Shown here: positions 3,551-64,000 of the stretch, one piece after another
Layout of the letters: each line of letters begins with the position of its first letter
How positions within the stretch are numbered: position 1 is the first letter of the stretch
Assembly (NCBI RefSeq): GCF_022695595.1
Contig: NZ_CP074380.1
Span: 5,834,001 to 5,898,000, forward strand
Direction: 5' to 3'
Source: Streptomyces sp. MST-110588
Lineage (GTDB): Bacteria > Actinomycetota > Actinomycetes > Streptomycetales > Streptomycetaceae
Length of the DNA: 64,000 nucleotides
Translations under genes and position numbers: made by a program
Notes under the pieces: generated by a model
The model's database searches: none
The model's input: the letters and a program-made list of their open reading frames with translations, nothing else
Told to the model about the DNA's origin: nothing

Positions 3551-4477
3551 ATGAATCCCGTACGCGAGGCCGTCACCGTCATCGGCCTGGGTTCCATGGG
3601 GTCGGCGCTGGCCGGCGCGCTGACGGGCCAGGGGCACCCGGTCACGGTGTGGAACCGCACGCCGGAGCGGGCCCGGGCGCTGGTCGCCAAGGGCGCCACC
3701 TCCGCGGCGACACCCGCCGAAGCGGTCGCAGCGAGCCGGCTGGTGATCGTCTGTGTGCTGGACTACGACGCGATGCACGCCGTCCTGGACCCGGTGGCCT
3801 CCGAGCTGGCGGGAAAGACGCTGGTCAACCTCACCTCCGGCTCCCCCGAGCAGGCCAAGGAGGCGTCCGCCTGGGCCGCTTCGCACGGCGCGGACTACCT
3901 CGACGGCGCCATCATGACCACCCCGCCGGGCGTCGGCAGCCCCGAGATGATGTTCCTCTACAGCGGTTCGGCGGACGCCTTCGCCACCCACCGCCCCACC
4001 CTGTCCGGCCTCGGCGACCCCCTCCACCTGGGCACCGACCCCGGCCTCGCCTCCCTCTACGACGCGGGGCTGCTCGGCCTGATGTGGGCCGCCCTGACCG
4101 GCTGGCTGCACGGCACCGCGCTCGCGACGGCCGAGAAGACGCAGGCCGTGGCCTTCACCGAGATCGCGGTCCGCTGGCTCACGGCGGTGGGCGGCTTCAT
4201 GTCCACGTACGCGCCCCAGGTGGACGCCGGACGCTACCCGGGCGACGACGCCACCGTCGACGTACAGATAGCGGCCATCGACCACCTCCTCCACGCCGCC
4301 GCGGACCGTGGGATCGACAACGCGCTGCCGCTGCTGCTGAAGCAGACCATGGAGCGGGCCAAGGCGGCCGGGCACGGCGCGGACAGCTACGGCAGCGTCA
4401 TAGAGGTGCTCAGGAAGCCGCAGGGCTCTGCACCCGCGGCAGGCACGGACGCCGGCTCCGCGGCGGGTGCGGCATGA
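3551..4477 (+). CDS. imine reductase/reductive-aminase-like NAD(P)-dependent oxidoreductase
   Basis: 308 aa from the ATG at 3551, preceded by AAGGAG at 3538-3543; the open frame upstream lacks a better start. The N-terminus is a Rossmann fold (VTVIGLGSMGSALAGAL, then WNRTPERA, which points to NADPH). The C-terminal helical part has the block typical of bacterial imine reductases rather than 3-hydroxyisobutyrate dehydrogenases: YLDGAIMTTPPGVG, then SLYDAGLLG, with Asp at the position often catalytic in IREDs. Members reduce cyclic imines or couple amines to ketones in vitro, and some act in natural-product pathways. Its stop overlaps the next start (ATGA at 4474), so the two are probably co-translated. 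The physiological substrate is not evident. Confidence 0.8.
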   Translation: MNPVREAVTVIGLGSMGSALAGALTGQGHPVTVWNRTPERARALVAKGATSAATPAEAVAASRLVIVCVLDYDAMHAVLDPVASELAGKTLVNLTSGSPEQAKEASAWAASHGADYLDGAIMTTPPGVGSPEMMFLYSGSADAFATHRPTLSGLGDPLHLGTDPGLASLYDAGLLGLMWAALTGWLHGTALATAEKTQAVAFTEIAVRWLTAVGGFMSTYAPQVDAGRYPGDDATVDVQIAAIDHLLHAAADRGIDNALPLLLKQTMERAKAAGHGADSYGSVIEVLRKPQGSAPAAGTDAGSAAGAA

Positions 4478-56568: not shown

Positions 56569-57753
56569 TCAGGTCTCCTGCGGGGCCTGTGCCGTACGGG
56601 ACGCCCAGCGCTTTTCGACGCCGGCCAGGCGCCAGTACGCGAGGGCCGCGGCCCAGACCACCACGAACAGGCCCACGATGACGAAGCCGACGTTGTCCAG
56701 GTTCAGGGACGATATCCAGCCCGTGAGGCCGTCGCTGAGCCCGAGTTTCTCGTGCAGGACGGACACCAGCTCGATGGTGCCGATGAAGAACGCGACGGCG
56801 ATCGACAGCCCGGTGATGGTGAGGTTGTAGTAGACCTTGCGTACCGGGTTCGAGAAGGCCCATTGGTACGCGAAATTCATGAACGTACCGTCCAGGGTGT
56901 CGAACAGGCTCATGCCGGCGGCGAAAAGGAGCGGCAGGCAGAGAATCGCGTACCAGGGGAGGCCGGCGGCGGCACCGCTGCCCGCCATCACCATCAGCGT
57001 CACCTCGGTTGCGGTGTCGAAGCCGAGCCCGAAGAGAAAACCGAGCGGAAACATCTGGCCGGGCCGGGTGATGGAACGCGTGAAACGGCCCAGAACGCGG
57101 TTCATGAAGCCACGGGAATCGAGGTGCTCCTCCAGTTCCCGCTCGTTGTAGCGGCCCTCGCGCATGGCCCGGAAGACTCGCCAGATGCCCGCCAGCGCCA
57201 CGAGGTTGAGGGCGGCGATGAGGTAGAGGAAGGTACCGGAGACGGTGGTGCCGACGGTGCCGAGGATTTGGTGCGTACGGGACTCGTCGTCCATCAGGAC
57301 ACCGGCGAGCTGCGCGCCGCCCGCCACCAGTGCCGCCATTGCGACCACGACGCTGGAATGCCCCAGCGCGAACCAGAAGCCGACCGAAACGGGCCGCTTT
57401 CCGTCAGCCATCAGTTTGCGGGTGGTGTTGTCGATGGCGGCGATGTGGTCGGCGTCGAAGGCGTGCCGCATGCCGAGGGTGTACGCGGTGATGCCCAGTC
57501 CCACCCCGAACACCTTGTTTCCCACCGTGTAATGGTGGGGGGCGACCAGCAGGAACAGCACGCCGAAGGCGACGACGTGCAGACCGGCTATCACGGCTAT
57601 CAGGCCCGCGGTCCGTACGGTGTCCTGACGCCGCCAGCGGAATGCGGGGAGTTCGGGCGCGGCGGAGGAAGAAGAGGAGGAGGGGGAAGGGGTAGGAGAA
57701 GGGGAAGGGGCAGGGGAAGCCGGGGGAATGGGGGGAGTTGGGGACGGGGACAT
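56569..57753 (-). CDS. NiCoT nickel/cobalt transporter
   Basis: 394 aa from the ATG at 57753; an in-frame start at 57786 would sit right against the riboswitch. The first ~40 residues are Pro/Ser runs. Eight membrane segments follow with the NiCoT signature GMRHAFDADHIAAIDNTTRKL (metal site in TM2, near 95), LGHSSVVVAMA, and LGFLFGLGFDTATEVTLM. It imports Co or Ni. The cobalamin riboswitch directly upstream on the same strand argues for cobalt to feed B12 synthesis. Confidence 0.92.
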   Translation of the reverse strand: MSPSPTPPIPPASPAPSPSPTPSPSSSSSSAAPELPAFRWRRQDTVRTAGLIAVIAGLHVVAFGVLFLLVAPHHYTVGNKVFGVGLGITAYTLGMRHAFDADHIAAIDNTTRKLMADGKRPVSVGFWFALGHSSVVVAMAALVAGGAQLAGVLMDDESRTHQILGTVGTTVSGTFLYLIAALNLVALAGIWRVFRAMREGRYNERELEEHLDSRGFMNRVLGRFTRSITRPGQMFPLGFLFGLGFDTATEVTLMVMAGSGAAAGLPWYAILCLPLLFAAGMSLFDTLDGTFMNFAYQWAFSNPVRKVYYNLTITGLSIAVAFFIGTIELVSVLHEKLGLSDGLTGWISSLNLDNVGFVIVGLFVVVWAAALAYWRLAGVEKRWASRTAQAPQET

Positions 57754-57796
57754 CCGGTGGTCACGCTCCAGCACCTCGTGGATCAATTCGTGAGAT

Positions 57797-58000: not shown

Positions 58001-58157
58001 ACGGCCCGGACACTCTAACGTCCGGCCAGGTCATCCGGTCACCGAGCCGCTGTGAGCCACTTCGGGACGGGTGGGAACCGGGCGGCGGGTTCGTTCGACT
58101 ACCTGGTCCGGGTTCGCAGCGGTGAGCCCGTGATCGGTCGAATTCCAGGGAGTACGG

Positions 58158-59309
58158 ATGCGCCTTCGCGCGAAGTGCGGCGTCGCGGTGACGATGACGG
58201 TTGCGGTCGTGGCGACACTGGCCGCCGGCTGCGGCGGCGGAAGCAGCGGCGGCAGCGGTGACAGCGGAAGCGGAAGCGGAAGCGGTGATGGCGGTACGGC
58301 CGGCTTCCCGGTGTCGGTGACCGATTGCGAGGGCCGTAGAACGACGTTCTCCCGACCGCCGGCGAAAATCGTGACCAGCAATGCCTCTGCCTTGGACATG
58401 CTGCTCCGGCTCGGTGCCGGGGACCGGATCGTCGGCACCGGATTCCCGCCCGGGAAAGGCACGTTGCCCGGTGAACTGGACGCACGGGCGCAGAAGGTTC
58501 CGGTCCTGGGCAAGGCGGTGATCCCGAAAGAGAAGCTGCTCGGTTCGGGGGCCGATCTCTACGTCGACACCTTTGCGTCGATGGGCAACATGGGCGCGGC
58601 GGGGGACCTGCCGTCCGAGGCGGAATTCTCGGCGGCCGGCATCAAGCACGTCTTCCTCGCCTCGACCGCCTGTGCACCGAAGAAGAACGCACCGCAGCGG
58701 GATCTGTCCGGGGTCGAGGGCGACATCCGGCGGCTCGGCGCGATCACCGGGACGTCGCGGCGCGCGCTGGAACTCGTACGGGGAATGGAGAAGAAGGTGG
58801 CGGCGGTGCGGAAGGCCGTGGCCGGTGTTCCGGAGGCGAGGCGGCCCACGTACTTCTTCTTCGATTTCGACGCGGGGACGAAACAGCCCATCGCGGTGTG
58901 CAACCGGCAGGTTGCCAACGCGGTGATGACGCAGGCCGGCGCCCGCAATGTCTTCGCCGACTGCGCGGGCGACTTCAAGCCGGTTTCCTGGGAGGACATC
59001 GTCAAGAAGGACCCGGACTGGATCCAGCTCGGTGTCCGTCGCCGTGGCGACCCGGCGGCCGACCGGAAAGCCTTCGCGCAGGCCGAGGAATTCCTCAGGG
59101 AATTCCCGGGGACGGCGGGGCTGCGCGCGGTGAAGGAAGGGAGATTCCTGCGGATCGGGTCGGAGGAGACCACCATCGCGGGCGTCGGGAACGCGGACAC
59201 GGTGGAGAAGATCGCGCGGACGCTGTATCCGGGACAGATGGGTCAGGTGGGGGAGAAGGGACAGACAGGGGAGAAGGGGCCGTCGGGGGAGAAGGGGCAG
59301 GCCGGGTGA
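58158..59309 (+). CDS. ABC importer substrate-binding lipoprotein (cobalamin/iron-chelate type)
   Basis: 383 aa, ATG at 58158. Lipobox L-A-A-G-C near 24, then a Gly/Ser-rich linker. Two helical-backbone lobes of the FecB/BtuF class: KIVTSNASALDMLLRLGAGDRIVGTGFP, and KVPVLGKAVIPKEKLLGSGADLYV. Cys-containing STACAP and CNRQVANAVMTQAGARNVFADCAG follow. The C-terminus has four G-E-K-G-x units of low complexity. Substrate may be cobalamin, cobinamide or a ferric chelate; the neighbouring NiCoT with its B12 riboswitch favours a corrinoid. GTGA overlap with the permease. Confidence 0.87.
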   Translation: MRLRAKCGVAVTMTVAVVATLAAGCGGGSSGGSGDSGSGSGSGDGGTAGFPVSVTDCEGRRTTFSRPPAKIVTSNASALDMLLRLGAGDRIVGTGFPPGKGTLPGELDARAQKVPVLGKAVIPKEKLLGSGADLYVDTFASMGNMGAAGDLPSEAEFSAAGIKHVFLASTACAPKKNAPQRDLSGVEGDIRRLGAITGTSRRALELVRGMEKKVAAVRKAVAGVPEARRPTYFFFDFDAGTKQPIAVCNRQVANAVMTQAGARNVFADCAGDFKPVSWEDIVKKDPDWIQLGVRRRGDPAADRKAFAQAEEFLREFPGTAGLRAVKEGRFLRIGSEETTIAGVGNADTVEKIARTLYPGQMGQVGEKGQTGEKGPSGEKGQAG

Positions 59310-60499
59310 GGCTCCGTACGGGGCGTATGCCTCAAGACGCGCGTACGCGGCGTACGGTGCGCATATCGCGCACAGGGCCTACGGGGCGTACGGGACGTAC
59401 AGGGCGTGGTGTCAGGGCCGGATGGCTCGCCGCCGGGCTGGGCATCGCGCTGCTGGTCGCGCTGACCGCCGCCGTCTCCTTCGGCTCCACCGACATCGCG
59501 CCCGGTCAGGTGTGGTCGGTGGTCTTCCGCAGGCTGTCCGGCGAGGCACCGCGGCCCGGCACGGACGACCTGATCGTCTGGCAGTTGAGGGTGCCCAGGG
59601 CGCTGCTGGCGGCGTTCGTCGGGGCAGGGCTCGGACTGATCGGTACGGCGGCCCAGGCGCTGGTGCGCAATCCGCTCGCGGACCCGTACCTGCTGGGCAT
59701 TTCCAACGGCGCGTCGCTCGGCGCGGTGGCCGCGATCGTCCTGGGAACGGGACTGGGGACGGGACTGGGAGCCGGGGCGGGCGCGGACGCGGGCGCGGGA
59801 TCAGGATCGGGCGCGGGCGCCGGGGGTGTGACTTCGGGGCTGAGCCTGTCCCTGGCGGCCTTCGCCGGTGCATTGGCCGCCTTCGCGCTCGTCTGGCTGC
59901 TCGCCCGTAGGGGTGGTGGTTTCTCGCCGCTGCGGCTGGTGCTGGCAGGCGTGGGCATCGGACAGTTCCTGTCCGGTTTCACCAGCTACCTGGTGTTGCA
60001 GGCGGGGGACGAGCAGCAGACGCGCGGCGTCCTGTTCTGGCTCATGGGCAGCCTCAGCGGCGCGACCTGGAGCGCGCTGGCCCTGCCGGTCGTCGCGGTC
60101 CTGGCGGGCCTGCTGTTCCTCCAGTCGCGGGCCCGCGCGCTGAACGCCATGACCATGGGCGACGAGACGGCGGCGAGCGTGGGCGTCGACGTCGTACGGC
60201 TGCGCAGGCTGCTGTTCGTGGTGACGAGTCTGCTCACCGGCGTCCTGGTGTCGGTGTCCGGGGCGATCGCCTTCGTCGGGCTGATGGTGCCGCACCTGTG
60301 CCGCCTGGTCGTCGGGGGCGATCATCGCAGGATGCTGCCGCTGGCGGCGCTGACCGGCGCGCTGCTGCTGGTCGTGGTGGACATCGTGTGCCGTACGGCG
60401 ATGAGTGACCAGGAACTGCCGGTGGGGGTGGTGACCGCGCTGATCGGCGCGCCGGTGCTGCTGCTGGTCCTCGACCGGCGTCTGGACAGCGGCAGATGA
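59306..60499 (+). CDS. FecCD/BtuC-type ABC permease
   Basis: 397 aa from a GTG at 59306 overlapping the upstream stop; an ATG at 59327 is possible. About nine or ten membrane helices: AFVGAGLGLIGTAAQALVRNPLADPYLLGISNGASLGAV is the class hallmark in TM2-3, and the ATPase contact (GAIAFVGLMVPHLCRLVVGGDHRRMLPLAALTG) lies near 310. An inserted Ala/Gly run (residues ~155-172) is unusual and from a GC-rich simple repeat at 59750-59830. The first ~35 residues are Arg/Thr-rich and cytosolic. Overlaps the ATPase start by ATGA. Confidence 0.9.
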   Translation: MRLRTGRMPQDARTRRTVRISRTGPTGRTGRTGRGVRAGWLAAGLGIALLVALTAAVSFGSTDIAPGQVWSVVFRRLSGEAPRPGTDDLIVWQLRVPRALLAAFVGAGLGLIGTAAQALVRNPLADPYLLGISNGASLGAVAAIVLGTGLGTGLGAGAGADAGAGSGSGAGAGGVTSGLSLSLAAFAGALAAFALVWLLARRGGGFSPLRLVLAGVGIGQFLSGFTSYLVLQAGDEQQTRGVLFWLMGSLSGATWSALALPVVAVLAGLLFLQSRARALNAMTMGDETAASVGVDVVRLRRLLFVVTSLLTGVLVSVSGAIAFVGLMVPHLCRLVVGGDHRRMLPLAALTGALLLVVVDIVCRTAMSDQELPVGVVTALIGAPVLLLVLDRRLDSGR

Positions 60500-61437
60500 G
60501 CGGGGAGCGGGGAAGGGAGAGGAAGGAGCGGAGAAGGGTGAGCGGGGAGCGAAGAAGGGGGAGCGGGAGCGGGGAGCGCCAGGTGAACAGCGGTGAGGAG
60601 AACGGCGGCAGTGGTGGGGACGGCGGGTGCGCAGTGACGGGGATGCGTATCGACATCGACGATCTCCGGGTGTCGTACTCCGGACGGTGCGTGGTGGCCG
60701 GCGTACGGATGATGGCCGCACCCGGCGAGATCGCGGGCGTGGTCGGTCCCAACGGGAGTGGCAAGTCCACGGTCCTGCGTACGGTGTACCGGCACCTGGC
60801 CCCCGACGCCGGACGGGTGCTGCTGGCCGGTGAGGACGTACGGGCGATGCCCTCGGCGCGGGCCGCCCGGCACATCGCGGCCCTCCCGCAGGAGCGCGGC
60901 GGCGACTTCGAACTCACCGTCCATGAGGTCGTGGCGATGGGGCGCACCCCGTACAAGAGGGCCTTCGCGGGCGAGGACGAAACGGACCGTGACGTGGTGT
61001 CCCGGGCGTTGGCCGATGTGGGACTGGCGGGCCAGGGCGGGCGCCGGTTCTCCGCGCTCTCGGGCGGGGAACGGCAGCGGGCGCTGCTCGGCCGGGCCTT
61101 CGCACAGCAGCCGGACGTGCTGGTACTGGACGAGCCGACCAACCACCTGGACGTACGGCACCAGGTGGAGCTGCTGGCCCTGCTGCGCGCGCAGGGCCGT
61201 ACGACGCTGGTCTCGCTGCACGATCTGAACGCGGCGGCGTCCGTCTGCGACCGGCTGCACGTGATGCACGAAGGAGCGGTGGTGGCGTCCGGGGCACCGC
61301 GCGAGGTGCTCACGCCCGAGCTGCTGGCGGAGGTCTTCGGCGTACGGGCCGCGGTGGTCGACCATCCGCTGACGGGCGACCCGCTGATCGCGTTCGACCA
61401 CCGACGGCCGGCGGATGCGGACGGGTGCCGGCTTTAG
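60496..61437 (+). CDS. ABC importer ATPase (FecE/BtuD type)
   Basis: 313 aa from the ATG at 60496 in the ATGA overlap, or ~264 aa from the ATG at 60643 (MRIDIDDLRVSYSG), where homology begins. The first 45 residues are Arg/Glu/Gly-rich from purine-rich DNA and are atypical. Walker A GVVGPNGSGKSTVLRT, Q-loop LPQERGG, signature RFSALSGGERQRALLG, Walker B DVLVLDEPTNHLDVRHQ, H-loop SLHDLNAA. It powers the permease at 59306-60499. Confidence 0.92.
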   Translation: MSGERGRERKERRRVSGERRRGSGSGERQVNSGEENGGSGGDGGCAVTGMRIDIDDLRVSYSGRCVVAGVRMMAAPGEIAGVVGPNGSGKSTVLRTVYRHLAPDAGRVLLAGEDVRAMPSARAARHIAALPQERGGDFELTVHEVVAMGRTPYKRAFAGEDETDRDVVSRALADVGLAGQGGRRFSALSGGERQRALLGRAFAQQPDVLVLDEPTNHLDVRHQVELLALLRAQGRTTLVSLHDLNAAASVCDRLHVMHEGAVVASGAPREVLTPELLAEVFGVRAAVVDHPLTGDPLIAFDHRRPADADGCRL

Positions 61438-61719: not shown

Positions 61720-62087
61720 TCAGTGTGAGGGGCGGCAGCGGCGTACATAGTAGGCATAGGTCAGTGCCAGTACCAGAGGGCCCCACAACATGCCCGGGGT
61801 GATACAGACCTTCGCCAGGATCTCCCACCAGATGTTGGAGAAGCCGACTCCGTCGAAGCCGGGGACGTGGAGCCAGTGCAGCAGCGTGGGCGCCCAGAAG
61901 GCCGTCGCGCCCAGGCCGCCGAGCGCGGCGGGGACGATAGCCGCGAAGGGCGGAATGCGCTTCCCCCGATGACCGGCAGCCAGCGGGGCGCCGCCTCGCC
62001 CCAGCCTCGCACCAGGCCGAAGGAGAGCAGCGCCAATGCCTCTGAGACGACGCTGAGCCCGAACACGTAGGGGATGGCCCACCACAC
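61720..62087 (-). pseudogene. decayed membrane protein, truncated and frameshifted
   Basis: A first piece reads VWWAIPYVFGLSVVSEALALL to RWLPVIGG, and a second in another frame continues KRIPPFAAIVPAALGGLGATAF to YAYYVRRCRPSH. The switch lies at five C on the plus strand (61963-61967), where one more base rejoins them. The joined piece has three or four membrane segments and the G-W-G-E-x3-P-R-W-L-P pattern I associate with uncharacterised Streptomyces membrane proteins. No start with coding context exists: an in-frame stop lies 18 bp before the GTG at 62087, so the N-terminus is missing. Confidence in decay is moderate. Confidence 0.6.
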
Positions 62088-62349
62088 CCACTCGGCCCGT
62101 CAGTCTTAACGATCTCCGGTGAATGGCTGACCGCCCCGCCCCGCACCGGCCGGATGCACGACCAGGCTGCGGTCCGCACCGAGGGCATCGCCGGGCGACT
62201 GCGGTTGCCGCGGTTGCATCCGGACGTGGAGGCAGGGTGTGGCGCTTCGGTGGTTTGTCGCTTTGTGGCTGTCGTCATGCCGGCAGACGCGGAGTAGTTT
62301 CCGCAGTGGGCCTGGGGCCGAAAGGGCGGCCCGGCCCACGGGAGAGATC

Positions 62350-62760
62350 ATGCGCCTCCACAACCCTCTTCTCCAGAACCTGGCCGTCAAGACCCGGCTG
62401 AGCCCAGGCGTGCTGGAAGAGTCCGTCGCCGCCCTGCGCGAGTGCGAGGAGGCCGTCACGGTCTGCGCGGCGGCGATGCTCACCGAGGGAGAGCCGGAGC
62501 AGATGCGGGAGGCGGTCTCCCGCGACGTGGACTGCGCCGATGTCCTGACCGCCACCCGCCGGGTGCTGGCCCGGGCCGGCGGCGGCGACGTCGGCGTACT
62601 GGCCGCTCAGTTGAACGCCTGCGCGGTGGCCTGCGAGCGCAGCAACGAACTCTGCTCCCAGCACGCGGACCACCTCGAACACTGCCGTGTCTGCGCGGAG
62701 GCGACCGGCAAGGCCGCCGAGGCGTGCCGCCGCATCATGGCGGGGGTGACGTCCGCCTGA
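62350..62760 (+). CDS. four-helix-bundle copper-storage-like protein (DUF326/Csp)
   Basis: 136 aa from the ATG at 62350, with GGAGAG upstream. All-helical, with about nine Cys in helix-spaced positions: ECEEAVTVC, VDCADV, LNACAVACERSNELCSQHADHLEHCRVCAEATGKAAEAC. This layout fits the DUF326 family whose Csp members bind many Cu(I) ions inside the bundle. No Tat or Sec signal, so cytosolic. It converges on the isocyanide synthase gene; a copper link between the two is inference. Confidence 0.85.
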   Translation: MRLHNPLLQNLAVKTRLSPGVLEESVAALRECEEAVTVCAAAMLTEGEPEQMREAVSRDVDCADVLTATRRVLARAGGGDVGVLAAQLNACAVACERSNELCSQHADHLEHCRVCAEATGKAAEACRRIMAGVTSA

Positions 62761-62834
62761 GCGGACGTTCCCGGCGGACGCGGACGCGGACGCGGAGGCG
62801 AAGGCGGGCGCGGAGGCGGAGGCATGCCGACTCG

Positions 62835-63950
62835 TCACGACTCGTAGTGGCTCGGCCGTCCGTCCCGGTGGACGAGGCGGCCGGCCGCGTCGGCGTCCGC
62901 GCGTCGCATCAGCCGTACGCTGCCGTCCGGGCGCCGCAGCACACATGAGTGCCACGGCGTCATCCAGGCGTCCGGCGCGTCCAGCAGCCTGATGCCGAAC
63001 TTGGCCGCGCCGCGCGGCTGCGGGTGGATGGACAGGCGTACGGCGTCCGGGTGGTGCTCGGCGATCAGGGCTCCCCAGGCGCGGCTGCGCTGGATGACCG
63101 CGTAGGCGCGGGTACGGCAGTGGCGCTGGAGGGCCGAGCGGGTGCCGGCGAAGCCGGTGGTGTCCTCGACGAGGAAGCGGGTGATGCCCCGGTACAGGCG
63201 CAGGACCTCCTGGGGGTCGGGTTCGTGCGGGTCGGGTTCGTGTGCGTTTGGAGAACCGTGCGCGTCCGCTGGTTCCGCTGTTCCTGGTGGCTGCGTGGTT
63301 CGCGTATCGGCTCGTGTACTGGCCTGCGTACCGGCCCGCGTACCGGCGCGTCCTGCTGTACGCGTTGCCGCACGCAGGGCGTCCAGGGGCGGGGCGTAAC
63401 GTTCGTGCACCAGCGTGCGCTTGGCTTCACAGGACAGATCACCGTATACGTCGCGCAGGTCGAACGTGCGGAGGCGGGACAGGCCGGCGGCACGGATCAT
63501 GGCGCGCAAGGCGTCGTTGTACGCGTCGACGCGCGGGTCCGGGACGCCGATAAGGTCGCTGAACAGGTGCCCGTCGGAGCAGATGACCAGGTGCGCGCCC
63601 GGTTCGTACAGCGTGCCGACCTCGGAGCACAGGCGGTCCAGGAAGCGCAGCGCCAGGCGTTCGCCCTCGTCCGGGAGGGCGCCCAGGACTTTTGCCGGGT
63701 TGGGTGACTTGCAGGGAAAGCCGGGGAGGGTGAAGCGGATCGGACGGCGGTCGGCTATCAGCGCCGTCAACTGCCTTAGCTGGTACGGGAAGTCGTCGAC
63801 CGTGGCCGGATCGTGCTCCAGTGTGCGGCGGTAGGGGAGGAGCGTGGCGAGTACCGCTCTCGCTGTTTCCGTGGCGCTCTGGGCGTGGGCTTGGGCGTGG
63901 GCCTGGGCATGGGCCCGGGGGTGGGAGCGCATGCGGATGTCGTGGGTCAT
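62835..63950 (-). CDS. isocyanide (isonitrile) synthase, DIT1/PvcA family
   Basis: 371 aa from the ATG at 63950. Family landmarks: RRPIRFTLPGFPCKSPNPAKVLG near 70-90, RLALRFLDRLC near 105, and LVICSDGHLFSDLIGVPD near 120-140. They are followed by SRAWGALI and IHPQPRGAAKFGIRLLD. PvcA-type enzymes convert the alpha-amine of Tyr or Trp to an isonitrile using ribulose-5-phosphate. An Arg/Thr/Pro-rich insert (about residues 195-245) and a His-Ala-Gln repeat near the start are unusual. The ATG overlaps the stop of the gene before it (ATGA), so an operon enters from outside the window. Confidence 0.85.
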   Translation of the reverse strand: MTHDIRMRSHPRAHAQAHAQAHAQSATETARAVLATLLPYRRTLEHDPATVDDFPYQLRQLTALIADRRPIRFTLPGFPCKSPNPAKVLGALPDEGERLALRFLDRLCSEVGTLYEPGAHLVICSDGHLFSDLIGVPDPRVDAYNDALRAMIRAAGLSRLRTFDLRDVYGDLSCEAKRTLVHERYAPPLDALRAATRTAGRAGTRAGTQASTRADTRTTQPPGTAEPADAHGSPNAHEPDPHEPDPQEVLRLYRGITRFLVEDTTGFAGTRSALQRHCRTRAYAVIQRSRAWGALIAEHHPDAVRLSIHPQPRGAAKFGIRLLDAPDAWMTPWHSCVLRRPDGSVRLMRRADADAAGRLVHRDGRPSHYES

Positions 63951-64000
63951 CGCGCGTCTCCCGCGGACATGGGACAGGCCGGGCCCGGGACCGGGGGTTC
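63947..64000 (-). CDS. 3' end of an upstream gene, partial
   Basis: The minus strand is open from the edge to a TGA at 63949-63947 that overlaps the isocyanide synthase ATG as ATGA. Only 17 codons are seen, ending C-P-M-S-A-G-D-A-R. The overlap suggests translational coupling. PvcA genes are often next to a PvcB-type Fe(II)/2-oxoglutarate oxygenase, but the visible tail cannot prove that. Confidence 0.6.
   Translation of the reverse strand, partial: EPPVPGPACPMSAGDAR

Follow-up and report, generated by a model that had tools for sequence, protein, structure and literature searches.

Why does a gene for an isonitrile (isocyanide) synthase lie next to a gene for a copper-storage protein at the right end of a 64,000-nucleotide stretch of Streptomyces sp. 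MST-110588 DNA? This stretch, called the window, covers bases 5834001-5898000 of a genome (G000) consisting of a single 7.9-Mb contig; the DNA to the right of it was analysed as L004 and L005, where an L004 position plus 61000 gives the window position. The original prediction, made from the letters of the window, had raised the possibility of a copper-responsive isonitrile pathway. The analysis indicates that the synthase probably belongs to a copper-starvation-induced operon for an isonitrile chalkophore, as part of a SigC-type regulon hosting two unrelated isonitrile chemistries. This reading is carried by the gene content, its recurrence, a common promoter motif, the homology of a nearby sigma factor to SigC, and the occurrence of the same module beside an unrelated pathway of the nonribosomal peptide synthetase (NRPS) type, all of which were observed. 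The genes and the promoter in question are the following.

58073-58102, plus strand: promoter of ECF (extracytoplasmic function)/SigC type, GGGAAC-N17-CGACTAC, 55 bases before the importer operon
58158-59309, plus strand: substrate-binding lipoprotein of FecB type, part of the predicted chalkophore importer (matches to NCBIfam F420-0/siderophore binding-protein families stay below cut-off)
59327-60499 (start inferred from translation), plus strand: FecCD-type permease (Pfam FecCD, 312.4 bits)
60643-61437, plus strand: FecE-type ATPase of the importer (NCBIfam F420-0/corrinoid/heme/Fe(3+) ABC ATPase families, all four below cut-off)
62350-62760, plus strand: Csp3-type cytosolic copper-storage protein (Csp), 136 aa, 9 Cys
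62835-63950, minus strand: isonitrile synthase of the DIT1/PvcA family, 371 aa (Pfam DIT1_PvcA)
63947-64000, minus strand: 3' end of a P450, full gene at L004:2947-4320 (Pfam p450, 92.2 bits)
L004:4388-6316, minus strand: AsnB, an asparagine-synthase-type amidotransferase (glutamine amidotransferase and Asn_synthase domains)

The open reading frames (ORFs) of synthase and Csp were both recovered where they had been placed. The synthase scored 248.2 bits against PF05141 (DIT1_PvcA; curated cut-off 26.4), which assigns it to the family, and its closest solved structure is PvcA (3e59, E 1.7e-69). Against the NCBIfam equivalog of L-tyrosine isonitrile synthases it scored 239.4 bits, under the cut-off of 600, and it is therefore not claimed to be PvcA itself. 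Neither the synthase nor the Csp ORF is a chance ORF. A low-complexity insert of about 45 residues separates the two halves of the Pfam match; it lies at residues ~200-245, is rich in Ala, Thr, His and Pro, and is absent from the other 16 rows of alignment A1, save for short stubs in L056 and L071.

The gene that overlaps the synthase and leaves the window proved to be that of the P450, with its stop codon ending at 63947 and the synthase ATG beginning at 63950, i.e. an overlap of 4 bases. With this overlap and AsnB, P450 and synthase all on the minus strand, the three genes form one operon by layout. The heme Cys motif of the P450 reads FGHGIHFCPG, and AGQEPV, presumably at the I-helix position, was invariant in all 15 P450s aligned, the other 14 being 68-77% identical to the P450 of the window. 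Of the genes that the original prediction proposed to look for on the right, the P450 was found, while a PvcB-type oxygenase and an NRPS were not, nor was an exporter of the major facilitator superfamily (MFS) like that of other cassettes. No PvcB-type oxygenase, NRPS or fungal-type isocyanide synthase (ICS) fusion lies beside the synthase; P450 and AsnB are found there instead, the enzyme set expected for the known chalkophore hazimycin. A synthase, an amidotransferase and one P450 would cover the needs of a dimeric tyrosine isonitrile amide, presumably the hazimycin structure, namely isonitrile formation, amide formation and phenol coupling. Further right, the genes are again no unrelated housekeeping genes, as copper proteins and a sigma factor follow the amidotransferase.

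L004:6977-9340, divergent from the biosynthetic operon: CopA (HMA and P-type ATPase)
L004:9325-9834, divergent from the biosynthetic operon, after CopA: PCu(A)C
L004:10067-10756, minus strand: SigC-like ECF sigma factor (NCBIfam and PDB matches)
L004:10797-11141, plus strand: short zinc-finger anti-sigma-like ORF (22.7 bits, cut-off 50)
L004:11375-12208, minus strand: Met/His-rich membrane-protein-like ORF (no Pfam or NCBIfam match)

The recurrence of this gene set was followed in a genus sample of 150 genomes (G000 included), 35 of which carry PF05141. From 48 listed PF05141 matches, 39 full-length loci and G146:C46 were taken (40 loci); G090 was added later, and the partial matches of G033, G101 and G117 stand outside the set. 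In 30 of the 40 loci the synthase scored above 335 bits against that of the window (31 rows with L004), and 26 of these 30 hold at least one of FecB, the SigC-like gene, CopA and PCuAC, the four others being L048, L050, L051 and the short contig L055. None of the four genes was found in the 10 loci with a synthase below 335 bits. FecB matches above 400 bits were obtained in 27 of the 150 genomes (G000 counted), and 26 of those 27 have a PF05141 gene. In 80 named loci, taken from 240 relatives in a contig scan, at least one of the four genes was present in 74; of the remaining six, four are short contigs, and the two from Archangium hold P450 and synthase alone. Among the matches listed, S. rimosus NRRL WC-3904 and S. 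monomycini rank as the closest named relatives, and several of the named relatives are Kitasatospora. The copper link of the pathway, which the original prediction had suspected, is in this way strengthened by the copper genes and the SigC-like gene to the right and by their return around related synthases, and a response to copper is probable.

After dereplication, 84 of 97 candidate loci were retained as P450-bearing cassettes; loci with no P450 above 400 bits, or with at least 30% shared 24-mers in the P450, were excluded. FecE was counted in 79 of them, FecB and FecCD in 78 each, the SigC-like ECF in 69, the Met-rich gene in 64, MFS in 50, AsnB in 44, PCuAC in 42, the anti-sigma gene in 41 and CopA in 38; contig ends or the 10-kb limit of the flanks truncate several of these loci. 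Two layouts were seen. In layout A, the Met-rich gene, SigC-like gene, importer, MFS, AsnB, P450 and synthase all lie on one strand; in layout B, that of the window, CopA-PCuAC is divergent from biosynthesis and the importer converges on the synthase. In one locus (L259, G090:C1:8453000-8472900), the synthase match is in two pieces and the cassette otherwise well stocked.

When the regions upstream of FecB were searched without bias for pairs of spaced words, GGAA-N18-CGAC / GAAC-N17-CGAC came up in 78 of 79, with the shuffle background at its floor of 0.7. The consensus, GGGAAC-N17-CGACTAC, looks like the -35/-10 pair of an ECF promoter. A position weight matrix (PWM) was built from the FecB upstream regions without L004 and used with a threshold of 10 bits. 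It scored 31.9 bits at the importer site of the window (match from 58072); two sites lie before AsnB, one of 25.7 bits and a weaker one of 12.5 bits. Its recovery of 79/79 FecB regions is partly circular. Sites above 10 bits were also found before the first biosynthetic gene in 66 of the 84 loci (MFS first 40/50, P450 first 22/28, AsnB first 4/6), against 4 of 420 control regions upstream of CopA, PCuAC, FecE, FecCD, ECF, Met-rich and anti-sigma genes. The 84 loci hold 178 such sites, 15 of which precede no listed cassette gene, and 30 shuffled loci hold none. In the whole of G000 the exact motif occurs twice, one copy forward and one reverse, before the importer and before AsnB. A looser pattern ending in CGACNNC has 18 sites there (CGACTAC in two of them) and the reversed control pattern 19, so that most loose sites are due to chance; among the other 16, five were examined (L202, L206, L211, L213, L214) and none exceeded 6 bits by PWM.

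The ECF protein of the island has M. tuberculosis SigC as its best PDB match (2o7g, 2o8x) and SigC (NF007231) as its best NCBIfam match; with 179.5 bits under the equivalog cut-off of 219, it is labelled SigC-like. The unnamed model NF009187 gave 175.0 bits. This is the one SigC-like gene of G000 (464.7 bits; next paralogue 67.3), and its pairing with the motif, which rests on linkage, is putative. According to passages of PMC7924339, M. tuberculosis SigC, with ctpB and ppe1-nrp as targets, induces ctpB and the nrp operon, and a sigC mutant lags in low copper. Likewise, a passage of PMC9600254 describes the chalkophore cluster as underexpressed in a SigC mutant in low copper.

Some motif sites of the genus scan fell in genomes without a PvcA cassette. 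Locus L254 (G016), chosen for two motif sites, carries CopA, PCuAC, a Met-rich gene and a SigC-like gene (150.7 bits against NF007231, 166.3 against another model), then a TauD-family enzyme, an FcoT thioesterase, an acyl ligase and an NRPS ending in a reductase, a content which we take to be the SF2768-type diisonitrile route. PF05141 had no match in this genome. L255 (G033) was chosen by motif as well. A motif-blind TauD search was also made; it returned 18 places in 15 of the 150 genomes, and up to 20 kb was inspected at each. In ten of them TauD is at least 73% identical to that of L254; for eight of these (L269-L276, 73-85% identical), TauD was the sole means of selection. A site before biosynthesis (AspHyd or MFS) is present in each of the eight, in five at no more than 300 bp and in L269, L274 and L276 at ~0.4-0.65 kb. 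Five of their six visible importers have a site (of only 10 bits in L269; none in L275), and seven of the eight loci a SigC-like gene above 180 bits (L272 being without). Together with L254 and L255, a biosynthesis site was found in 10/10, an importer site in 7/8 and a SigC-like gene in 8/10. Where TauD is 59-63% identical (the eight loci L277-L284), a 40-bit threshold brought up neither a SigC-like gene nor an importer, CopA or PCuAC, and the motif amounted to a single stray site of 12 bits.

In a phylum sample, a TauD match at E 1e-50 was obtained in 1 of 396 genomes, the mycobacterium-like G515, at a locus (L285) with a PPE gene, TauD, FcoT, ligase, NRPS, HMA, PepSY_TM, a copper-ATPase-like gene and SigC. 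This SigC scored 269.5 bits, above the equivalog cut-off. In 20 kb of L285 there are three exact copies of the core GGGAAC-N17-CGAC, with 0.14 expected and 0 of 200 shuffles reaching three, and a copy with one mismatch lies at 3573 before HMA/PepSY_TM. The three core sites are:

L285, position 12237: before PPE
L285, position 10766: before TauD, ~10 bases from the ATG
L285, position 1258: before the likely ATPase start

Taken together, a scheme can be proposed in which the substrate, the product, its export, the direction of transport, the recognition of the promoters by the sigma factor and the copper signal are predicted. With tyrosine as its presumed substrate, the synthase would form the isonitrile; amide formation would fall to the amidotransferase and the coupling of two phenol rings to the P450, with a hazimycin-type diisonitrile as the product. 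This compound would bind copper outside the cell, and the FecB/FecCD/FecE importer would take the complex back. Most likely under copper scarcity, the SigC-like factor of the island would act at the GGGAAC-N17-CGACTAC promoters and turn on importer and biosynthesis jointly. The handling, delivery, sensing or storage of copper may fall to CopA, PCu(A)C, Csp and the Met-rich membrane protein.

We further consider it fairly plausible, if with more reserve, that an old actinobacterial SigC-type copper-starvation regulon with the core GGGAAC-N17-CGAC has had PvcA/P450/AsnB and TauD/NRPS pathways plugged into it and swapped round the same regulator. The operon of the window would be one member, and G106, which keeps the importer without the synthase, would resemble a taker of others' chalkophore. 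A tree of the ECF proteins (quick method, 79 rows, many weak branches) needs a minimum of two PvcA/NRPS label changes, a hint of pathway swapping. The G106 locus (L253, G106:C31:24800-44700) holds a FecB/FecCD/FecE importer with a 40-bit motif together with SigC-like, Met-rich, PCuAC and CopA genes. No PF05141 match was found in this genome, a draft with N stretches, and its importer may be a remnant or may serve to exploit chalkophores made by others.

The same motif also precedes other genes. Sites of 12-28 bits were found before CopA in at least seven places outside G000 (L187, L188 = L272, L253, L259, L270, L271, L273), which would make CopA a possible regulon member in other genomes. Among 30 motif loci, a PepSY_TM-like gene follows the motif in seven (L218, called by Pfam; L227, L229, L235, L237, L240 and L245, called by eye). 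PepSY_TM genes may be part of the core of the SigC-type copper regulon, perhaps encoding metal reductases; a search of G000, run without a positive control, found no counterpart. In five genomes (L224, L234, L238, L244, L247) the motif stands before a methyltransferase-like ORF, named by eye. By eye, too, the remaining loci comprise nine in or beside a conserved coding stretch, four before isonitrile-pathway genes (L220, L225, L236, L241) and five others.

The Csp gene, which converges with the synthase gene, is of Csp3 type by profile and by model. No Pfam match was obtained at E 0.001, and the one NCBIfam match, Csp1, stayed below cut-off with 16.4 bits where 100 are required. A profile of Csp and 12 relatives retrieved the Streptomyces lividans cytosolic copper-storage protein (Ccsp) at E 5e-47. 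The AlphaFold model (mean confidence, pLDDT, 86.5) has four long helices, and Foldseek aligned it with the Ccsp chains at a template-modelling (TM) score of 0.79-0.85 by query length and a root-mean-square deviation of 1.0-2.4; on this model the fold is the Csp3-type four-helix bundle. Fold and common His/Cys positions are shared with the S. lividans protein, whereas several Cys positions are lost in the window protein, which keeps 9 Cys. Its five nearest relatives (49-52% identity) likewise lack several Cys of the other rows of alignment A3. Two of the five, L187 and L188, have CopA, PCuAC and Met-rich genes in the same island, L190 lies beside a motif-bearing PepSY_TM gene, and L186 and L189 have none of these within 20 kb. 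From these neighbourhoods, Csp belongs to a copper neighbourhood rather than to the isonitrile operon.

The proposed co-conservation of synthase and Csp did not hold. With a threshold of at least 20 bits and flanks of ~10 kb or less, no Csp-like gene was detected in the 40 PF05141 loci or in the 80 named loci. Of the nine genomes that have both, three (G000, G040 and, weakly at 24.7 bits, G097) place synthase and Csp-like gene no more than 13 kb apart; directly beside the synthase, Csp was seen only in G000 among the scanned loci. The pair was accordingly rejected as a conserved unit, its pairing being local to G000. No SigC-type site above 8 bits precedes Csp, which is therefore more likely a copper-excess than a copper-scarcity gene.

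Further neighbours of the importer were recorded. Between FecE and Csp lies a membrane-protein-like gene (61720-62274, minus strand), apparently split over two frames, whose 61720-62091 piece had no match above 25 bits in the other scanned loci. A NiCoT-type transporter-like ORF, named by eye (56569-57786, minus strand), adjoins the importer; it is also present in L056, L071, L076, L077 and L078, and in L046 and L115 a match is found across the synthase, on its opposite flank. L052, L053, L065, L069 and L055 have, beyond the synthase, a further FecB/FecCD/FecE set that is distinct from the first. By score, its FecB and FecCD resemble those of the L254 importer.

Several results weigh against a chalkophore operon under SigC-type control. 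FecB, SigC-like, CopA and PCuAC were all unseen in 14 of the 40 PF05141 loci, one of which is the short contig L055. AsnB is absent in 40 of the 84 cassettes, so that an amide product would not be universal, and the motif is absent or below 10 bits before biosynthesis in 18 of the 84. In G000 no motif above 8 bits precedes CopA, PCuAC or Csp. Across the genus the bare motif is not specific, being found in 130 of 150 genomes, and SigC-like genes occur in 106 of 150, far above the number of isonitrile pathways; the regulator thus serves other genes too, e.g. the PepSY_TM gene of the seven motif loci. The sigma factor itself stays under the SigC cut-off. In L285 the Streptomyces PWM scored 8.7 bits for HMA, 7.3 for PPE and -1.3 for TauD, with the ATPase site outside the top six; as all are below 10 bits, only the core is common to L285 and Streptomyces. 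L004 holds no cassette-type MFS gene, and the two MFS ORFs of the window, L004 and L005 (28470-30080 and L005:12711-14966), one on each side at a distance of ~30 kb, reach just 66-71 bits against the layout-A cassette MFS.

Three other explanations were considered. The isonitrile might be mainly an antibiotic against competitors, the copper genes being self-protection or chance neighbours and the importer serving something else. Hazimycin is presumably antimicrobial, CopA and Csp would suit self-protection, and L048, L050 and L051 have P450 and synthase without importer or CopA. This nevertheless seems unlikely, since one motif is common to importer and biosynthesis while CopA, PCuAC and Csp of G000 are without it, and since nearly all genomes with FecB carry PF05141, a family present in under a quarter of the sample. 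With no exporter nearby, the isonitrile might instead stay inside the cell as a copper buffer or detoxifier alongside the adjacent CopA, PCuAC and Csp. An importer with the promoter of biosynthesis makes little sense for a purely internal ligand, however, and exporters may be elsewhere, as with the two distant MFS ORFs; we regard this explanation as very improbable.

The promoter could also be read by another ECF sigma factor, with the SigC-like gene linked through a separate copper response with PCuAC. Such an arrangement would fit the pairing of motif and sigma factor by linkage and the 15 of 84 cassettes without a SigC-like gene in the fetched DNA. It is made quite unlikely by L285, where the motif core accompanies a SigC gene and precedes PPE, TauD and the copper ATPase, in agreement with the targets ctpB and ppe1-nrp given in passages of PMC7924339, and by the island being the place of the sole SigC-like gene of G000. 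The copper-starvation chalkophore operon is retained as the preferred reading. Isonitrile chalkophores are known from few organisms. The common promoter and the SigC-like gene would offer a testable switch for Streptomyces, tying two unrelated isonitrile chemistries to one copper signal, and copper-starved medium is the predicted condition for expression of silent isonitrile clusters. The analysis also brings to light, in G106, a case of an importer kept without the synthase.

The cassette type itself is already known. The hazimycin cassette (Matsuda et al.) reportedly consists of synthase, P450 and amidotransferase with transporter genes around, and copper binding was proposed. Synthase, P450, amidotransferase and importer are found together here as well, a composition like that reported for the hazimycin cassette, whose producer, Kitasatospora purpeofusca, lies outside the 80 named loci. 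The island differs in its adjoining genes, CopA-PCuAC and the SigC-like/anti-sigma/Met-rich set, and in that an MFS exporter of the cassette type was not seen. A title cited in PMC11085572 names hazimycin as an actinobacterial chalkophore. In the open PMC literature searched, no description of a link between a sigma factor and chalkophores in Streptomyces was found, nor one of the switch for isonitrile chalkophores outside mycobacteria, and SigC-type control common to two unrelated isonitrile pathways is undescribed there.

Other isonitrile systems share parts of this arrangement. With PvcAB paerucumarin and fungal isocyanide synthase clusters the island has the synthase family in common; unlike them, it has no PvcB-type oxygenase or NRPS domain beside the synthase and does carry a SigC-type motif. 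The diisonitrile NRPS clusters that we take to be of SF2768 type (ScoE/TauD route) share, in most of the ten loci, the SigC-like, Met-rich, PCuAC and CopA genes, the importer class and the motif; their isonitrile is made by an enzyme of the TauD family, together with FcoT, an acyl ligase and an NRPS. The M. tuberculosis SigC regulon (ctpB, ppe1-nrp) differs by its NRPS route and by the Streptomyces sigma factor falling below the SigC equivalog cut-off, and no FecB-type importer was found in L285. It is alike in its homologous sigma factor, in having a copper ATPase and isonitrile biosynthesis as targets, and in the core motif found in L285.

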